In this document: positions 3,892 to 14,128 of the stretch, one piece after another
Position numbering within the stretch: the first letter of the stretch is position 1
Layout of the letters: every line of letters starts with the position of its first letter
Virus record (IMG/VR): IMGVR_UViG_3300050139_000304
Span: 1-21,501 of that record
Strand: one strand, 5' to 3'
DNA length: 21,501 nt
From: a virus
Made by a program: the position numbers and the translations under genes
The notes under the pieces: generated by a model
The model's input: the letters and a program-made list of their open reading frames with translations, nothing else
The model's database searches: none
Told to the model about the DNA's origin: nothing

Positions 3892-5214
3892 ATGGGTATC
3901 CAGAATTTCCCCGCCGCCCTTCAGCCGATCATCCAGCAGGGCTTCCTCGAACGCGAGTTCGAGCAGGCACTGCAGTCCCGCCTTGGTTATCGCGCCTGTG
4001 CCGACCGCGAAGACATCGCCGTCGGCATCGGTGAGACGCTGACCAAGACCCGCGCCGGCCTGAAGCCGTCGGTCACGACCCCGGTTCCGCCCGCCACCAA
4101 CACCAACCTCGACAACGGCCTCACGCCCAGCACCTGGGGGATCGAGCAATATACGCTTACCATCAACCACTATGCCGCGACCACCGACCTCAACATGGTC
4201 ACCAGCCGTGTCGGCATCGCCTCGCAGTTCCTGCAGAATGCCCATGTGAACGGCGAACAGGCGGCGCGCAGCCTGGATGAGCTGGCCCGCAACGCCCTGT
4301 TCAATTCCTATTTCGGCGGCAACACCCGCGTGCGGACCACGCTTGGCTCGCCGGGGGCGGCGGTCGCGGTGGACGATATCCGCGGCTTTCTCACCGTCTT
4401 CGTCAACGGTGTGCAGACGCCGGTCAGCACGTCCAACACGCTGACCGTCACCATCGGTGCCAATCCCTACACGCTGCTCGGCGCGGTGACGGATACCACC
4501 AATGTCTCCACCGCGCCGAACGGCATCTCCGGCGTGCTGACCCTGTCCAGTGCCGTGTCGGTATCCGACGGCACCGCCGGCAACAGCGTCACCTCGGCGA
4601 TTGCCTCGGTGATCGTCCGTCCGTCGCAGCGGGGCAATACCTCCAGCCTTCTCGCCGGCGACACGCTGACGATGTCGGCGTTGCTTGATGCGGTGGCCAA
4701 GCTGCGCATGAACGCGGTGCCGGAAATCGACGGCGTCTACAACTGCTATCTGGATCCGGTCTCGGCGCGCCAGCTGTTCGCCGACCCGGATTTCCGTCAG
4801 CTGTTCCAGGGCGCCACCTCGGCCAACCAGGTGTTCCGTCAGGGCATGGTCAACGACTTTCTCGGCCTGCGCTTCATCCCCACCACGGAAGCTTTCGTGC
4901 AACCGCACCCCAGCCTGGCGGGCCTGATGATCCGGCGCCCGATCGTCTGTGGTCAGGGTGCGCTGATCGAGGGCGACTTCGCCGGCATGGCCGCGGAGGA
5001 TATCGCACCCGCCGACAGCATCGTTTCCATCGTCGATGGCGTGGCGATGGTGACGCGCGAGCCGATCGACCGCTTGCAGCAGATCATCGCCCAGTCCTGG
5101 TACTGGATCGGCGGCTTCTGCACGCCGTCCGATACCACCACCAACCCCAGCACGATCCCCACCGCGACCAACGCCGCCTTCAAGCGGGCGGCGATGATCG
5201 AGCATATCGGCTGA
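3892..5214 (+). CDS. Major capsid protein
   Basis: This 440-residue protein forms the icosahedral shell. It follows the scaffold-like gene and has an AAGGA ribosome binding site. The N-terminal part (GETLTKTRAGLKPSVTTP, then TWGIEQYTLTINHYAATTDL at about residues 81-100) and the segment VYNCYLDPVSARQLFADPDF (282-301) look like the E-loop and P-domain elements of HK97-fold capsids of the N4-gp56/P22 broad type. A Thr/Ser/Val-rich beta segment of about 85 residues (about 160-245) separates the two halves and looks like an insertion domain. There is no obvious N-terminal delta domain or cleavage site, consistent with a separate scaffold gene. The capsid call is strong by position, length and composition; the exact subfamily is uncertain. 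Confidence 0.85.
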   Translation: MGIQNFPAALQPIIQQGFLEREFEQALQSRLGYRACADREDIAVGIGETLTKTRAGLKPSVTTPVPPATNTNLDNGLTPSTWGIEQYTLTINHYAATTDLNMVTSRVGIASQFLQNAHVNGEQAARSLDELARNALFNSYFGGNTRVRTTLGSPGAAVAVDDIRGFLTVFVNGVQTPVSTSNTLTVTIGANPYTLLGAVTDTTNVSTAPNGISGVLTLSSAVSVSDGTAGNSVTSAIASVIVRPSQRGNTSSLLAGDTLTMSALLDAVAKLRMNAVPEIDGVYNCYLDPVSARQLFADPDFRQLFQGATSANQVFRQGMVNDFLGLRFIPTTEAFVQPHPSLAGLMIRRPIVCGQGALIEGDFAGMAAEDIAPADSIVSIVDGVAMVTREPIDRLQQIIAQSWYWIGGFCTPSDTTTNPSTIPTATNAAFKRAAMIEHIG

Positions 5215-5236
5215 ACCAGCAGGGAGCGGAACAGAC

Positions 5237-5545
5237 ATGGCCATCGGATCAACCTTGCCGTTCCGCCCAGCCGGAACGGTCGCGCTTGGTGCAACCGCGA
5301 CCTCGGCCAGCGTTCCGCTGGCTGGCGGCGGCGATTCGGTGGTGGTGACCAACACCACCACCTCGCTTGCCTATGTCCGTTTCGGGGCCGACCCTTCGGT
5401 GGTCGCCACGGCGGCGGACATGCCGGTGCTGCCGAATTCCCGGATCATGCTCGGGATCAACACGCTGATAACCAACGTGGCGGCGCTGCTCGCCAGCGGT
5501 TCCGGCACGGTGTTGTTCACGCGTGGTGACGGGTCCTATCTCTGA
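5237..5545 (+). CDS. Small head decoration-like structural protein
   Basis: This 102-residue protein lies immediately after the capsid gene with a GGGAG ribosome binding site. It is almost entirely beta-prone and rich in Ala, Thr, Val and Gly, with no cysteine and few charges. Alternating hydrophobic segments such as SVVVTNTTTSLAYVRFGADP and GSGTVLFTRGDGSYL suggest a compact beta sandwich. Proteins of this size and place often decorate or stabilise the capsid, but some phages put a small neck protein here. Its stop overlaps the next start (TGATG), so the two are probably translated together. The role is inferred from position. Confidence 0.6.
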   Translation: MAIGSTLPFRPAGTVALGATATSASVPLAGGGDSVVVTNTTTSLAYVRFGADPSVVATAADMPVLPNSRIMLGINTLITNVAALLASGSGTVLFTRGDGSYL

Positions 5546-5925
5546 TGTCGCTCACGGATGCGGAAAAGACGGATGCCCGCCGCTTCTGCGGCTATCCCGC
5601 CTATGGCGCGGGATCGGCGGGCTTCCAGAACTGGCGATTCTACCAGGCGTACGGCCTGATGGAATTCCGCCTGAACAACCTCGCTCCCGCCGAGGAAGCC
5701 GTGCTGCGTCGCTACCTCACTACGCTGCTGTCGCTCGAATTCGCCGTTCCCCGATCCGGCGAGAACCTGGACACCGATCAGGCGGCGGTCTGGACCCACA
5801 ACCGCTCGGAGACCGAGGACCGTGCGGCGCTGTTCGACGACTGGCGCCGCCGTCTCTGCGGTTTCCTGGGCATGCCGCCCGGCCCGGCGCTCGCGTCCGG
5901 CGGCAGCATCGCCTTGGTGGTGTGA
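5545..5925 (+). CDS. Probable head-tail adaptor protein
   Basis: This 126-residue protein is probably one of the joining proteins placed below the portal. It is mainly helical in its first half (SLTDAEKTDARRFCGYP, then NLAPAEEAVLRRYLTTLLS at about residues 49-67) with a second helix containing DDWRRRLCGFLGMPPG (about 99-114). The size, helical makeup and position between decoration-like and neck genes match gp6/gp15-type adaptors. The start overlaps the previous stop and the next gene begins one base after its own stop. I do not recognise a specific family, so the role rests on gene order. Confidence 0.58.
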   Translation: MSLTDAEKTDARRFCGYPAYGAGSAGFQNWRFYQAYGLMEFRLNNLAPAEEAVLRRYLTTLLSLEFAVPRSGENLDTDQAAVWTHNRSETEDRAALFDDWRRRLCGFLGMPPGPALASGGSIALVV

Positions 5926-5926
5926 C

Positions 5927-6571
5927 ATGGATCAGAGCCGTTTGCAGGATCGTATCAGCTGGGGCTTGAACGTGGCGGCCCGTCGCCTCGGCGCCTCCGC
6001 CGACGCGTATCGTCCCAACAGCACGGCCCAGCCGCTCGCGCCCGCCAACCGGTTTTTGCGCCTGCATGCCGCGTTCACTGGGCCGGACGGCAAGTTCGCC
6101 CAGCCGAACGGCTACGGCGCGGCGCTCTGGCATGGCGTGTTCGACACCGCCTACACCAGGCCCGGCGACTATCTGGCGCAGGACGGCGCCATCTGGTTCG
6201 TCGCCGCGCAGCAACGCCTGCTGCCCGCGCTCTGCGTCAGCACCAACCGCGTCGTCAGCTTCGTCCGTCCCGCCGCGCCCACGACGAATGGCGTGAACCT
6301 GTATGGCGGTGTTTCGCTCGCCGATGCCACCACGCTGCTGACCCATTGGCCCGCCAGCGTGCTCGGTGCCTCCGGCAGCGGCCATCCGGATGCCGACCTG
6401 CCCACCGACGGCGCCATTCCCTACTGGACCGTTCTGCTGCCCGCGTTTCCCGGCGCGCTGTTGCGTCCGGCCGATCTGATGACCGACGAGCTCGGCCGTA
6501 CCGCCACGATCTCCTCCGCCGAACTGACCGAACTCGGCTGGCGTCTCACCGTCAAGCAGGCGACTACCTGA
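5927..6571 (+). CDS. Probable neck (head-closure) protein
   Basis: This 214-residue protein starts at the ATG directly after the adaptor stop; the frame is open upstream to 5822 but that part lies inside the adaptor gene. It has a helical N-terminus (SRLQDRISWGLNVAARRLGA) followed by a beta-rich core. The core includes the block TRPGDYLAQDGAIWFVAAQQ and then LCVSTNRVVSFVRP, a pattern resembling head-completion or stopper proteins, whose core reads as a short barrel. The stop overlaps the next start (TGATG). Position between adaptor and tail-terminator-like genes supports a neck role. The exact function is inferred. Confidence 0.55.
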   Translation: MDQSRLQDRISWGLNVAARRLGASADAYRPNSTAQPLAPANRFLRLHAAFTGPDGKFAQPNGYGAALWHGVFDTAYTRPGDYLAQDGAIWFVAAQQRLLPALCVSTNRVVSFVRPAAPTTNGVNLYGGVSLADATTLLTHWPASVLGASGSGHPDADLPTDGAIPYWTVLLPAFPGALLRPADLMTDELGRTATISSAELTELGWRLTVKQATT

Positions 6572-10097: not shown

Positions 10098-10474
10098 TCG
10101 CTCTCGACGGTCTGCGGGCGCTTGCCGATCGCCTGGCCCGCCTCGATCTTCCCGCCGTGCAGCATGCGGCGCTGGAAGACGCGGCGGAGCGGCTGGATGC
10201 GGCGGTGCGGCAATCGCTTTCCAACCCGCCCGGCGGCGATCACGCAACGCCCTGGTTGCGCACCGGCGCGCTGCGCGCCTCCATCGACCACCGTACGGAT
10301 GCCGACAGCGCCGTCGTCGGCTCCGACGACCCGGTCGCGGTCGATCAGGAGCTTGGCACGATGCGCGTCCCCCCGCGTCCCTTCCTCGCCACCACGGCGG
10401 CGACGCATGCGGCGGAGATCGCGCGTTCCGTCGGCGCCGCCATTGCCGAGGCGCTCAACGGAGCCCTGCGATGA
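10094..10474 (+). CDS. HK97 gp10-like tail-completion protein
   Basis: This 126-residue protein starts at the ATG overlapping the frameshift-product stop, with GGAAGGA 6 nt upstream. The N-terminal half is helical (LRALADRLARLDLPAVQHAA, then LDAAVRQSLSN). The C-terminal half has the family-type sequence TPWLRTGALRASIDH, a strand AVVGSDDPVAVDQELGT, and RVPPRPFLATTAATHAAEIA with a terminal helix. This arrangement (LRTGALRxSI, then a mid Glu-Leu-Gly-Thr and RPFL) is typical of HK97 gp10/phage G-like head-tail connection proteins. Its placement after the chaperone is unusual since these genes normally precede the sheath or tube. The stop overlaps the next start (ATGA). Confidence 0.72.
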   Translation: MIALDGLRALADRLARLDLPAVQHAALEDAAERLDAAVRQSLSNPPGGDHATPWLRTGALRASIDHRTDADSAVVGSDDPVAVDQELGTMRVPPRPFLATTAATHAAEIARSVGAAIAEALNGALR

Positions 10475-11349
10475 TCGACGCCTACACCATCGGCATCACG
10501 CTCGCGCTCGACAACGGCGTGGCCGCCGGCATCGCCGCCATCCGCCGGGATCTCGCCGCGCTGGACCGCGCCATCGCCAACTCCGCCGCCGGCCTGGTGG
10601 ATTTGCGCCACTTGTCGGAAGCGCTGCCGGCAACCACGCCGGCGCGTCCCGCCGCCCAGCCGCCCGCGCCCAGACCGCCAGTACCCGTCCCGGAGCGATC
10701 CGAGGCAGCACCGCGCGCCGCCGCCGCGCCGGCCTTTCCGCCGCCGAGCCCCACGCAGCGCTCCGTCGCGTCGCCGCCGGAGCTGCTGGCCGCCCGGCCC
10801 ATGCCCGGGGCAAACCAGACGGCGGCGGTGCCACCAGCGGTCGCTCTGGCGGCGCCGCCAGCCGTCGATGTCGGGGGAATCCCCACGGCTCCCTCCGCCT
10901 CCCCACCGGCGGCGCGGCAGCCGGCTTCGCCCTCCGCGCCCGCAGTGCGTTTCCTCGCCCCGACCGCTCCCGTCGAGCCGGTCCTGTCGGCGCCGCTCGC
11001 GCCGCCTGCGCCGGCGGTAGCATCCGCAACAATCCGCCCCGCCGCGCCATATCCTTCTGTCGGCCCCTCGGACGTCCGTCCGGCTGCCCCGGTGGCGCCG
11101 TCGACACTGCCGCCCGCGTCCCAGCCGGCCGCCGCCGCCACCACTGCGCCACCATCGCCCGCTCCGTCGGAACAGTCGCAGCAACACCAGGACGCACCGA
11201 CCCAGGCGGAGCTGCATCTGGACGGCGCCCTGCTGGGTCGCTGGGTCGGTCGCTACCTCGCGCGTCAGGTGAACCGTCCCCCGGCCGGCACCACCGGGAT
11301 CGACCCCCGCATCAGCCCGGAGTGGGCCGGCGCGCCCACCGGAGGCTGA
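10471..11349 (+). CDS. Short Pro/Ala-rich protein at the tape-measure position
   Basis: This 292-residue protein lies where the tail tape measure belongs, after the chaperone pair. The N-terminus, residues 1-50 (IDAYTIGITLALDNGVAAGI, then AAIRRDLAALDRAIAN), is a helical start like those of tape measures. The C-terminus, about 247-292 (ELHLDGALLGRWVGRYLARQ, then PPAGTTGIDPRISPEW), also looks conserved. The middle, about 50-240, is a low-complexity stretch of Pro, Ala and Ser with no transmembrane helix, coiled coil or lysozyme domain. If it sets tail length at about 0.15 nm per residue (the general rule), the tail would be about 44 nm, which is short. It could also be an internally deleted or linker-type variant. 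The identity is inferred from position. Confidence 0.5.
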   Translation: MIDAYTIGITLALDNGVAAGIAAIRRDLAALDRAIANSAAGLVDLRHLSEALPATTPARPAAQPPAPRPPVPVPERSEAAPRAAAAPAFPPPSPTQRSVASPPELLAARPMPGANQTAAVPPAVALAAPPAVDVGGIPTAPSASPPAARQPASPSAPAVRFLAPTAPVEPVLSAPLAPPAPAVASATIRPAAPYPSVGPSDVRPAAPVAPSTLPPASQPAAAATTAPPSPAPSEQSQQHQDAPTQAELHLDGALLGRWVGRYLARQVNRPPAGTTGIDPRISPEWAGAPTGG

Positions 11350-11356
11350 GCCGGCC

Positions 11357-12019
11357 ATGGACGATCTCCGTATCCCCTGCCTGCTGTGGTTCCCGGGCGA
11401 TCCGCCGCCCGATCTGTCCGGTTTCGCCGAGCCCATTCGATTGCCGGTCCGGGTGGTCTGGCGGGCGGATGCGGCGGCGGAACAGCCCGTGCCGACCGAA
11501 CCGCCGCCCCAGGCTCAGCCGCCTGAGCCGCCAGGCAACGATCTGCCCGCCAACACCGATCCAGGCGAGCCGATGTCATCGCGGATCGGGAATGCGATAT
11601 TGCGCTTGATCGTCCCAGCGGCGCAGGCACAAACTCTTGCGCCCGTAGCCGAAACAAGGGAACTTACAGGCTTCGCTACCTTCTATAATCAACCTGGAAA
11701 CAGGACAGCGAGCGGACGGACATTCGATCGAAACGGCTTAACTGCCGCAATGACATCAGATAGGGCCAAAATCGGAGATAAAGTGCGCGTCCAATTGCAA
11801 TCCGACCCGAGCAGATCGGTGGATGTCATCATAAACGACACAGGGCCTTTCGAAAGAAGGCCGGATGGAATGGTGATCCGTCCTTTGCGGCCTGATCCCA
11901 AGATCGTAATTGATCTTACTCCGCACGCTTTCGATGTATTAACTGGCGATAAGAGAGCCCTCGGGAAAGTCCAGGTCATTGTAACGGTAATGGGCCATGC
12001 TGAGCGATCACCCAGATGA
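11357..12019 (+). CDS. Phage N-terminus fused to an RlpA-like double-psi beta-barrel protein
   Basis: This 220-residue protein has two parts. Residues 1-35 (MDDLRIPCLLWFPGDPPPDL and on) form a phage-type segment that occurs again, damaged, at 13034-13117. A Pro-rich linker (about 40-70) follows. Residues about 104-197 are an RlpA-type double-psi beta barrel: GFATFYNQPGNRTASGRTFD, LTAA, VIINDTGPF (Asp161) and IDLTPHAFDVLTG. RlpA proteins bind and sometimes cleave peptidoglycan stripped of side chains. Here the Glu normally found in TASGE is Arg121 and the His of TAAH is Met132, so catalysis may be lost. An ATG at 11573 (Met73) could give a separate form beginning MSSRIGNAILRLIVPAAQAQ, with a weak signal-peptide look. 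GC content falls from about here. Confidence 0.75.
   Translation: MDDLRIPCLLWFPGDPPPDLSGFAEPIRLPVRVVWRADAAAEQPVPTEPPPQAQPPEPPGNDLPANTDPGEPMSSRIGNAILRLIVPAAQAQTLAPVAETRELTGFATFYNQPGNRTASGRTFDRNGLTAAMTSDRAKIGDKVRVQLQSDPSRSVDVIINDTGPFERRPDGMVIRPLRPDPKIVIDLTPHAFDVLTGDKRALGKVQVIVTVMGHAERSPR
11365..11447 (+). repeat. Direct repeat, copy 1 (intact)
   Basis: This 83-base segment at the 5' end of the RlpA-fusion gene matches 13034-13117 with about seven differences, one of which is a single-base indel (GGGCGA here, GGGGTGA in copy 2). It encodes the LRIPCLLWFPG part of the phage-type N-terminus. The copies lie about 1.67 kb apart in the same orientation and bracket the AT-rich genes. Confidence 0.9.
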
Positions 12020-12489
12020 AACGCACTAAAATCCTGATACTATGCCTGCTGCTCGGGCTTGCCGCGGTGACAACTCGGTCTGCTCAATCCGAAACAGTAT
12101 GGCTGTCTGTCCCCTTTGCCAAAATTGGCGAGACCGAGCGGATCGTCGATTTTGAGTTGAAAATAACCGGCGCGACAATTCGTTCCATTCCCCAGGTTCC
12201 GGAAGGTTGGTTCCTCTCGCTGACCAATGATGCATCGGGTTCGTCCGAAATCAGGGGGAACATCCAAGTGGGCGCTGCGGCATTGTATAGATCGTTTTTC
12301 AGTTCATTCCTATTTGTGGATAAAAAAAATGACCCCCAAATCAAATTCAGCATTGCTATGGATGTATCCGTAACCAAGGATTTTGAAAAATTCAAATATA
12401 TAAATATCAACACGAGCGAGATGATTGTCTCCGTAACGGCGAGATCGAGCCAGCCGCGTCCACATCCTGAGCGTAAAGCTCTCCGATAA
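12016..12489 (+). CDS. Secreted protein of unknown function
   Basis: This 157-residue protein begins at an ATG overlapping the stop of the RlpA-fusion gene (ATGA), so the two are likely co-translated. It has a clear Sec signal peptide: MKRTK followed by ILILCLLLGLAAVTT, with likely cleavage near SAQS-ETV (about residues 26). The mature part is beta-rich (VPFAKIGETERIVDFELKIT, then a Pro/Gly turn VPEGWFLSLTND, then IRGNIQVGAAAL) and contains no cysteine. Codon use and base content are far more AT-rich than the phage genes, which indicates recent acquisition. I recognise no family. A periplasmic or exported role is inferred from the signal peptide; no enzymatic motif is visible. Confidence 0.7.
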   Translation: MKRTKILILCLLLGLAAVTTRSAQSETVWLSVPFAKIGETERIVDFELKITGATIRSIPQVPEGWFLSLTNDASGSSEIRGNIQVGAAALYRSFFSSFLFVDKKNDPQIKFSIAMDVSVTKDFEKFKYININTSEMIVSVTARSSQPRPHPERKALR

Positions 12490-12593
12490 CGTCCCGCCAA
12501 CAACAACGAGCCGCCCTACCGCCCGAAATCAAAATTTCCTGCCTGCGCTGGTGGATTATTTCCCGCATATTCGTAACCCGGAATAGGCATAGA

Positions 12594-12962
12594 ATGCTGG
12601 CTTTCCTACGTGGGCTGTTAATAGGCATCGTGCTGTGTGCCGCGTTCCTATCGTTGTTATTCGTTGCGATTGCTGCATTTCCCCAATGTACGTCACAGGA
12701 TCTCCGGATTGCTTCTCCCAGCGGCGAAATGGCAATCGTCACGAGATTAGAAGATTGTGGAAATGCACTGTCGGGAGCCTTTTCTTACGCCGCGTATGTA
12801 GTTAAAGGCAATATGGACACCGGATCGGCATCCGAAGAAAACAAGATTCTCCAAACCGATGTGATGGACACGTATCCCGAGATCGGCATTCATTGGAACG
12901 GCGAATCTTCGGTGGTGCTGTTGATACCAAAACAAACGCCAATCAGGCTGCAGGAAATTTAA
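12594..12962 (+). CDS. Membrane-anchored protein of unknown function
   Basis: This 122-residue protein starts with an N-terminal transmembrane segment (FLRGLLIGIVLCAAFLSLLF) and a short exposed domain. The exposed domain contains PQCTSQDLRIASPSGEMAIV, then a DCG motif, then GIHWNGESSVVLLIPKQT. The pattern SP-G-x-V...DCG...W...V-L resembles small uncharacterised proteins of Gram-negative accessory regions, but I cannot confirm that. Two cysteines (Cys32 and the one in DCG) could form a periplasmic disulphide. Base content is AT-rich, like the gene before it. A 104-base gap separates the two genes, which probably share a transcript. The membrane topology is clear; the role is unknown. Confidence 0.65.
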   Translation: MLAFLRGLLIGIVLCAAFLSLLFVAIAAFPQCTSQDLRIASPSGEMAIVTRLEDCGNALSGAFSYAAYVVKGNMDTGSASEENKILQTDVMDTYPEIGIHWNGESSVVLLIPKQTPIRLQEI

Positions 12963-13033
12963 AAATTCAATACACGACTATATTACGAATATCAGTAATT
13001 ATAAAACGGGGCATGTCTGATCGCCAACGGCTC

Positions 13034-13117
13034 TCTCCGCATTCCCTGCATGCTGTGGTTCCCGGGGTGATCCGCCGCCCGATCTGTCGGGTTTCGCCGA
13101 GCCTGTTCGATTGCCGG
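13034..13117 (+). repeat. Direct repeat, copy 2 (frameshifted)
   Basis: This is the 84-base counterpart of 11365-11447 in the same orientation, about 91 percent identical by eye, with a one-base insertion that breaks its reading frame. It bounds the right side of the three-gene AT-rich segment. Confidence 0.9.
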
Positions 13118-13158
13118 CCAAGTCGATGGCGCTGAAGTTTGATTACCCGAAACTGTAG
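13034..13158 (+). pseudogene. Broken second copy of the fusion-gene N-terminus
   Basis: This stretch repeats the N-terminal coding sequence of the gene at 11357. It reads LRIPCMLWFPG, then a single extra G (GGGG, 13064-13067) shifts the frame into TGA. Correcting one base restores DPPPDLSGFAEPVRLPAKSM and then ALKFDYPKL to a TAG at 13156. No good start codon is in frame. It is most likely the remains of the phage gene that was interrupted or duplicated when the island arrived. Confidence 0.75.
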
Positions 13159-13162
13159 GGAA

Positions 13163-13303
13163 TCACGGCCGGTCGTGACCTGCCACTGATCTTTCATCCA
13201 GCGGCGACCAGACCCTCGGCGAGGGTCGACCCGTTGCGTTCATGTGCGCGGCATAGGCCGCAGGCATCCGATACCCGATCGATGAATGCGGCAGACGGAT
13301 GTC
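13163..13303 (-). mobile_element. Fragment resembling an IS3-family transposase C-terminus
   Basis: On the - strand, reading from 13294 toward 13163, the translation gives LPHSSIGYRMPAAYAAHMNA and then TGRPSP. RPHSSLGYxTPAAYAA followed by TG is the hallmark end of IS3-family OrfB transposases. Only about 40 residues remain and nothing upstream resembles the catalytic DDE domain, so it is a remnant. I could not identify terminal inverted repeats or a target-site duplication. It lies between the broken gene copy and the U-like gene. Confidence 0.55.
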
Positions 13304-13387
13304 GCGGGCCGCCGCGTTTCCGGCTTTACCTCCATAGCGCCGCCACCCCAACCGCACGCCGACAGGCGCGCATCGGAACAATCCCGC

Positions 13388-14128
13388 ATGTCCGACATCG
13401 TCCTCCTCCTCGGCCCGATCGTGTTCAACGATTTCGAGGTGCCCGGCGGCATCGTCTTCGGCGGTGCTCAGCGTCTGGCGATCCATCGCCTGCCCGGCGG
13501 CGCCCGGGTCATCGATGCGCTCGGTCGCGACGACCGGGCGCTGTCCTTTTCCGGCACCTTCTCCGGCGCCGACGCCACATTGCGGGCCCGGGCGCTCGAC
13601 GAACTGCGCTCGGCCGGCCTGCCGTTGCCGCTGACATGGGATGTCTTCTTCTACACGGTCGTCATCGACAGTTTCCAGGCAGACTACCGTGCCGGAAACT
13701 GGATTCCCTACAAGGTCAGTTGCACGGTCATTCGTGACGAAGCCTCGGCGGTGATCCAGGCGGCGGCTTCGCTCGCCACCACGGCGCTCGCCGATGTCGG
13801 CAGTGCCGTTGTCCCGGCTTCCGCCGCCGGCATCGATCTGACCGGCGCGCAGTCCACACTTGCCACCGCCGGTGCGACCACGCGCGGCAGTGCCGATTAC
13901 AGCGCGGCCGGCGCGGCCATCGGCAGCGCGCAAACCACCATCGGCACCAGCCTGGCGGATGCCGGAGCCGCGCTGTCCTCCGCCGGCCTGGTCGGTGCCA
14001 TGTCGGCCGATGCCGGCGTCACCGGCCTCAATGCCGCCGCGCAGGCGGCCCGCCAGATCGGTCAGCTTACCCAGGCGTCCGGCTATATCGGCCGTGCCGC
14101 CGTCAACCTTGCCAACGCGAGCACATAG
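13388..14128 (+). CDS. P2 gpU-like / baseplate-associated tail protein
   Basis: This 246-residue protein starts at the ATG at 13388; the frame is open upstream to 13286 but runs through IS-fragment sequence. Residues 1-120 are a beta-rich domain: MSDIVLLLGPIVFNDFEVPG, then IVFGGAQRLAIHRLPGGARV, SFSGTFSG and LPLTWDVFFYTVVIDSFQAD. The order resembles P2 gpU-type and DNA-circulation N-terminal domains, whose GG-x-x-x-x-V-H-R-L-G-G and W-P-x-x-x-F-x-x-x-V-x-x-F features it shares. Residues about 125-246 are a low-complexity Ala/Gly/Thr helix-rich tail. Gene order (tape measure, U, X, D) is that of P2. It probably sits at the tape-measure/baseplate hub interface. The ribosome binding site is weak. 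Confidence 0.6.
   Translation: MSDIVLLLGPIVFNDFEVPGGIVFGGAQRLAIHRLPGGARVIDALGRDDRALSFSGTFSGADATLRARALDELRSAGLPLPLTWDVFFYTVVIDSFQADYRAGNWIPYKVSCTVIRDEASAVIQAAASLATTALADVGSAVVPASAAGIDLTGAQSTLATAGATTRGSADYSAAGAAIGSAQTTIGTSLADAGAALSSAGLVGAMSADAGVTGLNAAAQAARQIGQLTQASGYIGRAAVNLANAST

Follow-up and report, generated by a model that had tools for sequence, protein, structure and literature searches.

The described systems closest to the locus considered here are of two kinds. MuF polymorphic toxins of temperate phages are encoded in the packaging module (Jamet et al. 2017, PMC5576092, in the accessible part of that paper) and, as far as the literature searched extends, the MuF packaging protein is the phage structural protein described in print as a carrier of polymorphic toxins. 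In Rhs systems, displaced tips retain a part of the core that lacks start signals and recombine over 522 bp, according to the accessible part of Koskiniemi et al. 2014 (PMC3967940). In the openly available literature, outside which most subscription journals lie, no paper was found on toxin cassettes at the junction between tape-measure and U genes. Such a junction is examined here in a stretch of 21,501 nucleotides (IMG/VR record IMGVR_UViG_3300050139_000304, positions 1 to 21,501; hereafter the window), where a fusion gene (11357..12019, + strand, 220 residues) joins a short N-terminal domain (Nt) to an RlpA-like domain and is followed by two small genes, g2 and g3, and by a broken second copy of the Nt sequence. 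In this phage and its relatives, which infect soil bacteria, Nt seems to act as a socket into which pairs of toxin and antidote can be exchanged. With a probability of about two in three, the locus is a phage-tail polymorphic toxin system. Nt would then serve as carrier and the RlpA-like domain as toxin tip, g2 would be the immunity gene, g3 an orphan immunity gene and the second Nt copy a remnant.

The junction varies widely among relatives. The U-like protein, used to locate the site, matched 169 loci (the window being counted among the sources searched), of which 128 were kept after removal of identical U sequences; the MAG (metagenome-assembled genome) copy L002 was merged with the window, the near-copies L007 and L008 were both counted, and 13 of the 128 have no tape-measure end and stand outside the 115 distinct sites counted. 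Fewer than 100 bases and no gene separate the two tail genes at 66 of these sites, 36 have a spacing of 100-300 bases, and 13 are loaded, with 500 to 4,072 bases. The Nt profile finds a stand-alone Nt gene of 47-75 residues at 17 of the 36, with U directly behind in every case (17/17) and the end of the gene lying at, close to or slightly within the start of U; one more stand-alone case is found in genome G421 (L247). Nt-bearing sites occur mostly in relatives with high U-profile scores, and the small Nt gene is an accessory gene, mostly of closer relatives. A first-pass annotation of the window, which took the cargo to have been inserted into a small phage gene, had expected one intact small gene at the empty site. 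This holds for the 17 of 115 sites with a stand-alone Nt; in the wider family 66 of 115 are unoccupied and have no such gene, an outcome that it had itself named as contrary to its account.

Other cargo, which the same annotation had proposed to look for, is found at the site in relatives. Nt is fused to cargo at 6 of the 13 loaded sites (the window, L012, L003, L137, L184 and L165), all with a G+C content below that of the upstream genes, and the constant Nt bears differing C-terminal domains in the window, L012/L003, L137, L184 and the MAG contig C367, considered below. The window's load is an RlpA-like tip followed by g2 and g3. L012 and L003 have a tip of about 160 residues, its frame broken at the end in L003, and then a DUF4279 protein (E 4e-6 and 3e-6), a family called immunity in the accessible part of PMC13304343. 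At L137 the tip and a DUF6188-like protein (E 1.9e-5, just under the cut-off) have overlapping frames, as tip and partner also do in the window, L012 and two further loci, C331 and G005. L184 has a tip, an anchored protein and several small genes, one of them DUF6188-like, whereas L165 has an 87-residue frame that is possibly decayed. A small gene stands directly behind the tip in the window, L012, L003, L137, L184 and C367. The partners of the RlpA, C367 and L184 tips have a signal peptide or anchor, and the DUF4279 and DUF6188-like partners have none, as expected for L012 and L137 if those tips act in the cytoplasm. The cargo has a logic that the first-pass annotation did not give it: it pairs a toxin-like tip with an immunity-like gene, and other phages hold another pair. 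Among the remaining loaded sites, L208 carries what by eye alone is a divergent Nt, then a tip and several members of a small gene family whose match to DUF7336 is weak, and L007/L008 and L039 hold other genes.

Two small-gene rows were noted in passing. At L184 (reverse strand, genome G327, about 4000-6530 oriented) related short proteins with a C.CLNE.CNG motif look like an immunity array, and at L208 (oriented 4109-5581) related genes with a motif like GIYSS..A..RL....GFRDWP.GFRI lie behind a possible toxin gene.

Cassettes of the same build occur away from the phage. Contig C367, from the MAG that also contains the phage DNA, carries, between metabolic genes, the last tape-measure codons, Nt, the Pro-rich linker, a different tip and a membrane protein. 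Its DNA matches the window at 82% over 11303-11547 (245 bases), and the homology stops where the RlpA tip starts, which is the pattern that an exchange of tips would leave. A decayed cassette in G327:C45 holds a tip of the C367 type (z 54) and a related partner, and the C367 and L184 tips are themselves distantly similar (z 9). The name 'toxin 44', considered for the C367, L184 and G327:C45 tips, found no support in the scans and is not used.

The composition of the DNA changes within the fusion gene. Nt and its Pro-rich linker (11357..11559, +) belong with their surroundings, Nt having a G+C content of 0.71 and a third-position G+C of 0.79; the composition shifts at about 11560, behind the first copy of the repeat described below, and the G+C content of the flanks, 0.718 and 0.670, exceeds the 0.497 of 11560-13030. 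At third codon positions the RlpA tip, g2 and g3 have a G+C content of 0.53, versus 0.78-0.85 in the sheath, tape measure, U and hub genes. The repeat belongs with the phage-like DNA, and the tip does not. The comparison of G+C and codon use proposed in the first-pass annotation thus yields a 50% G+C stretch inside a tail operon of 67-72% G+C, and of its three AT-rich genes between the repeat copies the low G+C is borne out, except that the first gene is AT-rich only past Nt and the Pro-rich linker.

The tip itself (11666..11956, +) has an RlpA-like double-psi beta-barrel. Residues 104-200 of the fusion match Pfam DPBB_1 (E 1.7e-8, 35 bits against a cut-off of 28.8); the curated cut-off of TIGR00413 is not reached (22.1 bits against 82.15). 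An AlphaFold2 (AF2) model of the domain, of good confidence, was matched by Foldseek to 4avr (PA4485) with a TMt of 0.81. Tail lysins are common, and Foldseek ranks first a baseplate protein of cyanophage A-1(L) (8kea_A, E 7.4e-7), which keeps alive a rival reading of the RlpA domain as an enzyme of the virion, joined to a small tail protein, that breaches the peptidoglycan so that DNA can enter, with g2 and g3 as unrelated passengers. The A-1(L) hub does have hydrolase domains active on cells (PMC10966104, accessible part). This rival is nevertheless unlikely, because most relatives have no RlpA-like domain, other phages carry tips of other types there whose partners lack signal peptides, and g2-type genes accompany RlpA-type genes in loci that are not phage. 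The fusion lacks a signal peptide; in a crude test for a Sec signal its N-terminal hydrophobicity is 0.83, versus 2.69 for g2. A wall-directed enzyme without an export signal beside an exported partner fits an effector delivered from outside.

The tracking of RlpA-type genes by g2 extends over several genomes. g2 (12016..12489, +), which overlaps the fusion gene by 4 bases, starts, like its relatives, with a hydrophobic signal and is a candidate for the protein that confers immunity to the RlpA tip in the periplasm. Homologues stand behind RlpA-type genes in G001:C331 (same MAG, overlapping frames, z 15 against g2), G005:C141 (overlapping frames), G381:C215 and G253:C2, and the genes upstream of them score above Pfam's cut-off for DPBB_1, so that RlpA and g2 form a pair that recurs elsewhere, as the C367-type tip and its partner do in G327:C45. 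Among 395 genomes, a g2-type gene follows a DPBB_1 gene in 5 of the 7 hits with E <1e-10; since two of the five (the window and C331) built the g2 profile, the independent score is 3/5. The profile gave 12 hits, of which the loci of the window, C331, G005, G010, G363, G381, G253 and G347 were inspected and those of G267, G290, G310 and G385 left out. The g2 fold resembles an Ig/cohesin-like beta sandwich (best Z 8.0, Foldseek E 2e-3), and no function is drawn from it because such a Z may reflect a common arrangement alone. Separately, RlpA-type genes at L075 (5093-5488) and L235 (1106-1465) share an N-terminal DQGRQxHGYFGHG, which may be a further carrier or loading motif, and each has a g2-type gene behind it.

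g3 (12594..12962, +) encodes an N-terminally anchored protein similar (z 13) to the anchored, immunity-like partner of the L184 tip. That partner is in turn similar to the C367 partner (z 12), and the direct similarity of g3 to the C367 partner is weak (z 2.8). g3 is thus a candidate immunity gene left over from another type of tip. A match of g3 to a 6-kDa protein of Citrus tristeza virus (E 4e-4, under the cut-off, in a hydrophobic stretch) was taken as chance.

The cargo is bracketed by a direct repeat. As the first-pass annotation had recognised, an 83-base segment near the start of the fusion gene (copy 1, 11365-11447, +) recurs at 13034-13117 (copy 2, +), with 76 of 83 aligned bases identical, 7 substitutions and a 1-base insertion in copy 2; the local alignment score of 126 compares with a maximum of 30 over 200 mononucleotide shuffles, and the Nt profile also matches copy 2. 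Similarity ends sharply on either side of copy 2, with 11 of 28 bases identical upstream and 9 of 23 downstream. Copy 1 would be the live carrier, and copy 2 has lost its start codon, is shifted in frame and ceases to be homologous at codon 30. The earlier description of a live copy and a decayed copy at the far end therefore stands as to the missing start, the frameshift and the truncation, and neutral decay of the second copy is unsupported. Polarisation by the outgroups C367, L012 and L003 gives 2 derived positions in copy 1 and 3 plus the insertion in copy 2, with 2 undecided, and 5 of the 7 differences between the copies are synonymous (P about 0.03 under neutrality), which suggests that copy 2 probably functioned as a carrier through most of its history. 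The private derived bases in each copy fit two carrier alleles brought together. A small gene duplicated in tandem or split as unrelated cargo came in, with copy 2 then decaying neutrally, would explain why a repeat brackets the cargo and why copy 2 has neither start nor frame. This course is quite improbable given that each copy keeps bases that the other has lost, that most differences are synonymous, that toxin/immunity logic recurs at the sister sites and that the orphan cassette has its own Nt.

These observations suggest the following course for a tail-borne toxin system. The 3' end of an accessory Nt gene between the tape-measure-like and U-like genes would be swapped together with an immunity gene, and the window's carrier would at present bear an RlpA-like, peptidoglycan-directed tip. 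Without a signal peptide the fusion should be harmless in the producing cell. Nt would dock it on the tail, with which it would enter the periplasm of the next cell, while g2, exported to the periplasm, would shield the lysogen and its kin, and g3 would be retained from another tip. An incoming cassette's Nt would recombine into the resident Nt gene, generating the direct repeat, with copy 2 as the displaced carrier, later broken. The crossover product would then read carrier, incoming tip with its immunity gene, earlier immunity gene and displaced carrier, for which the window is a single case. The repeat, the site, the range of tips, the orphan cassette and the linkage of g2 to RlpA are observations; toxicity, neutralisation, loading on the tail and this order of events we infer. 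That g2 and g3 instead alter the host envelope (to exclude superinfection, for example) and the RlpA gene reshapes the wall of the lysogen, as cargo of lysogenic conversion, agrees with the predicted export or anchoring of g2 and g3 and with the AT-richness of the cargo, which many moron genes share, and is very improbable because the RlpA fusion lacks an export signal, g2 lies behind RlpA-type genes in non-phage loci and the partner changes together with the tip.

Several observations weigh against a tail-borne toxin system. In the alignment of the tip with PA4485 the Asp of NDxGPF is kept and the Glu of TASGE is replaced by Arg; these two residues we take to be the catalytic acids of RlpA, and the enzymatic activity of the tip is thus uncertain. 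In the accessible part of PMC8820737, an Asp is named as the predicted active site of RlpA and E. coli RlpA is described as without detectable activity. Seven of the 13 loaded sites have no Nt by profile, and three resemble insertion sequences, L048 by Pfam (an IS200-type transposase) and L033 and L044 by eye. Pfam and NCBIfam assign the tips other than RlpA to no toxin family. g2 homologues in G010 and G363 have no RlpA gene upstream, the G363 match being a short fragment. The assignment of contigs C367 and C331 to the MAG rests on binning. Residues 1-30 of Nt have a pLDDT (the confidence score of the model) of 83-91 yet no secondary structure; such a confident, unstructured model might reflect a peptide lying on a partner. 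Finally, Nt-like segments occur at chromosomal places, so that Nt need not be a part of the phage tail.

The chromosomal segments bear on a wider and more tentative proposal, which is possible and on balance doubtful: that Nt is a transferable loading signal of about 35 residues for contractile tails, that phages and hosts trade cassettes by this shared tag, and that particles deliver antibacterial toxins along with DNA. The Nt motif, strand-turn-strand-like and ending in ...IPVRIV, heads tips at the phage junction and is also found in chromosomal loci of the same order. Nt-like open reading frames of 57-261 residues lie beside the same glutamate-synthase-like chromosomal gene (named by eye) in four genomes (L249, 1465-1638; L250, 1420-1644; L251, 1444-1764; L234, 1745-2530, - strand). 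In the last of these (G381) the Nt-like part is fused to an RlpA tip and accompanied by a g2-type gene, which parallels the phage site on a chromosome. Of the later Nt-profile hits, L247, L249-L252 and L258 were inspected and L248 and L253-L256 left out.

The window's record has genes for terminase, portal, major head protein, tail sheath and baseplate wedge (PHROGs), and head, packaging and sheath genes together indicate a contractile-tailed phage rather than a tail on its own. The same DNA is present in the MAG palsa_911 (Acetobacteraceae), at 99.97% over the 2,895 bases compared. The left neighbour of the site (10471..11349, +; 292 residues), presumed from its position to be a tape measure, is conserved at its N and C termini in relatives, the C-terminal profile serving to anchor the site; the protein is very short, and its Pro/Ala-rich middle is poorly conserved in comparison with the ends. 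The right neighbour, the U-like tail gene (13388..14128, +; phrog_21362, E 7e-41), had been given a start at 13286, which alignment moves to 13388; its protein has matches in only three isolated phage records, all partial. Abutting copy 2, on the reverse strand at 13118..13315, is a motif that we take to be like the transposase C terminus of an insertion sequence; this segment is a possible insertion-sequence remnant. It matches G001:C463 at 95% over 38 bases and has a single weak, unannotated plasmid match (E 1e-3), and nothing clear was found at the loci around its short G001 DNA matches. A tblastn search with the fusion in 50,697 phage records gave no match, nor did scans of viral contigs with either g2 or the fusion turn up a relative.

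If the tail-borne toxin system is real, it would add a second structural carrier, in a contractile tail operon and with a periplasm-directed tip, so that whole phages could act as toxin injectors; the carrier would be very small and testable, and the tail-operon cargo hot spot would be explained by traffic of toxin cassettes between phages and chromosomes. Compared with RlpA septal lytic transglycosylases (DPBB_1, PF03330), the window's tip shares the fold, a DPBB_1 match above cut-off and the Asp motif NDxGPF, but it has no signal peptide and no SPOR match, has Arg for the Glu of TASGE and lies far under the TIGR00413 cut-off. As in phage tail lysins such as the A-1(L) hub (PMC10966104, accessible part), a wall-degrading type of domain occurs in a baseplate-region protein; the A-1(L) protein is a core hub component, whereas the window has an accessory, variable tip with an immunity-like partner. 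The likeness to orphan Rhs-CT/RhsI modules, as far as the accessible account of them goes, lies in carrier fragments that are displaced and lack start signals, in immunity genes that are kept and in recombination via a shared core; those modules have an Rhs core and their own secretion route, and the window has a short Nt and a phage tail operon. The likeness to MuF, in the accessible part of its description, lies in a phage structural gene as N-terminal carrier, a variable C-terminal domain, a small immunity-like reading frame behind it and stand-alone short carriers elsewhere. MuF belongs to the packaging module, mostly of siphoviruses, with toxins mostly in Firmicutes, whereas the window's carrier lies between tape measure and U in a contractile-tail operon of phages with Acetobacteraceae-type hosts, and Pfam scans of the fusion and of the L012, L137 and C367 proteins found no MuF family. 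In its architecture and its cassettes the window's locus is like a polymorphic toxin system, and its tip would be toxic and delivered to other cells.
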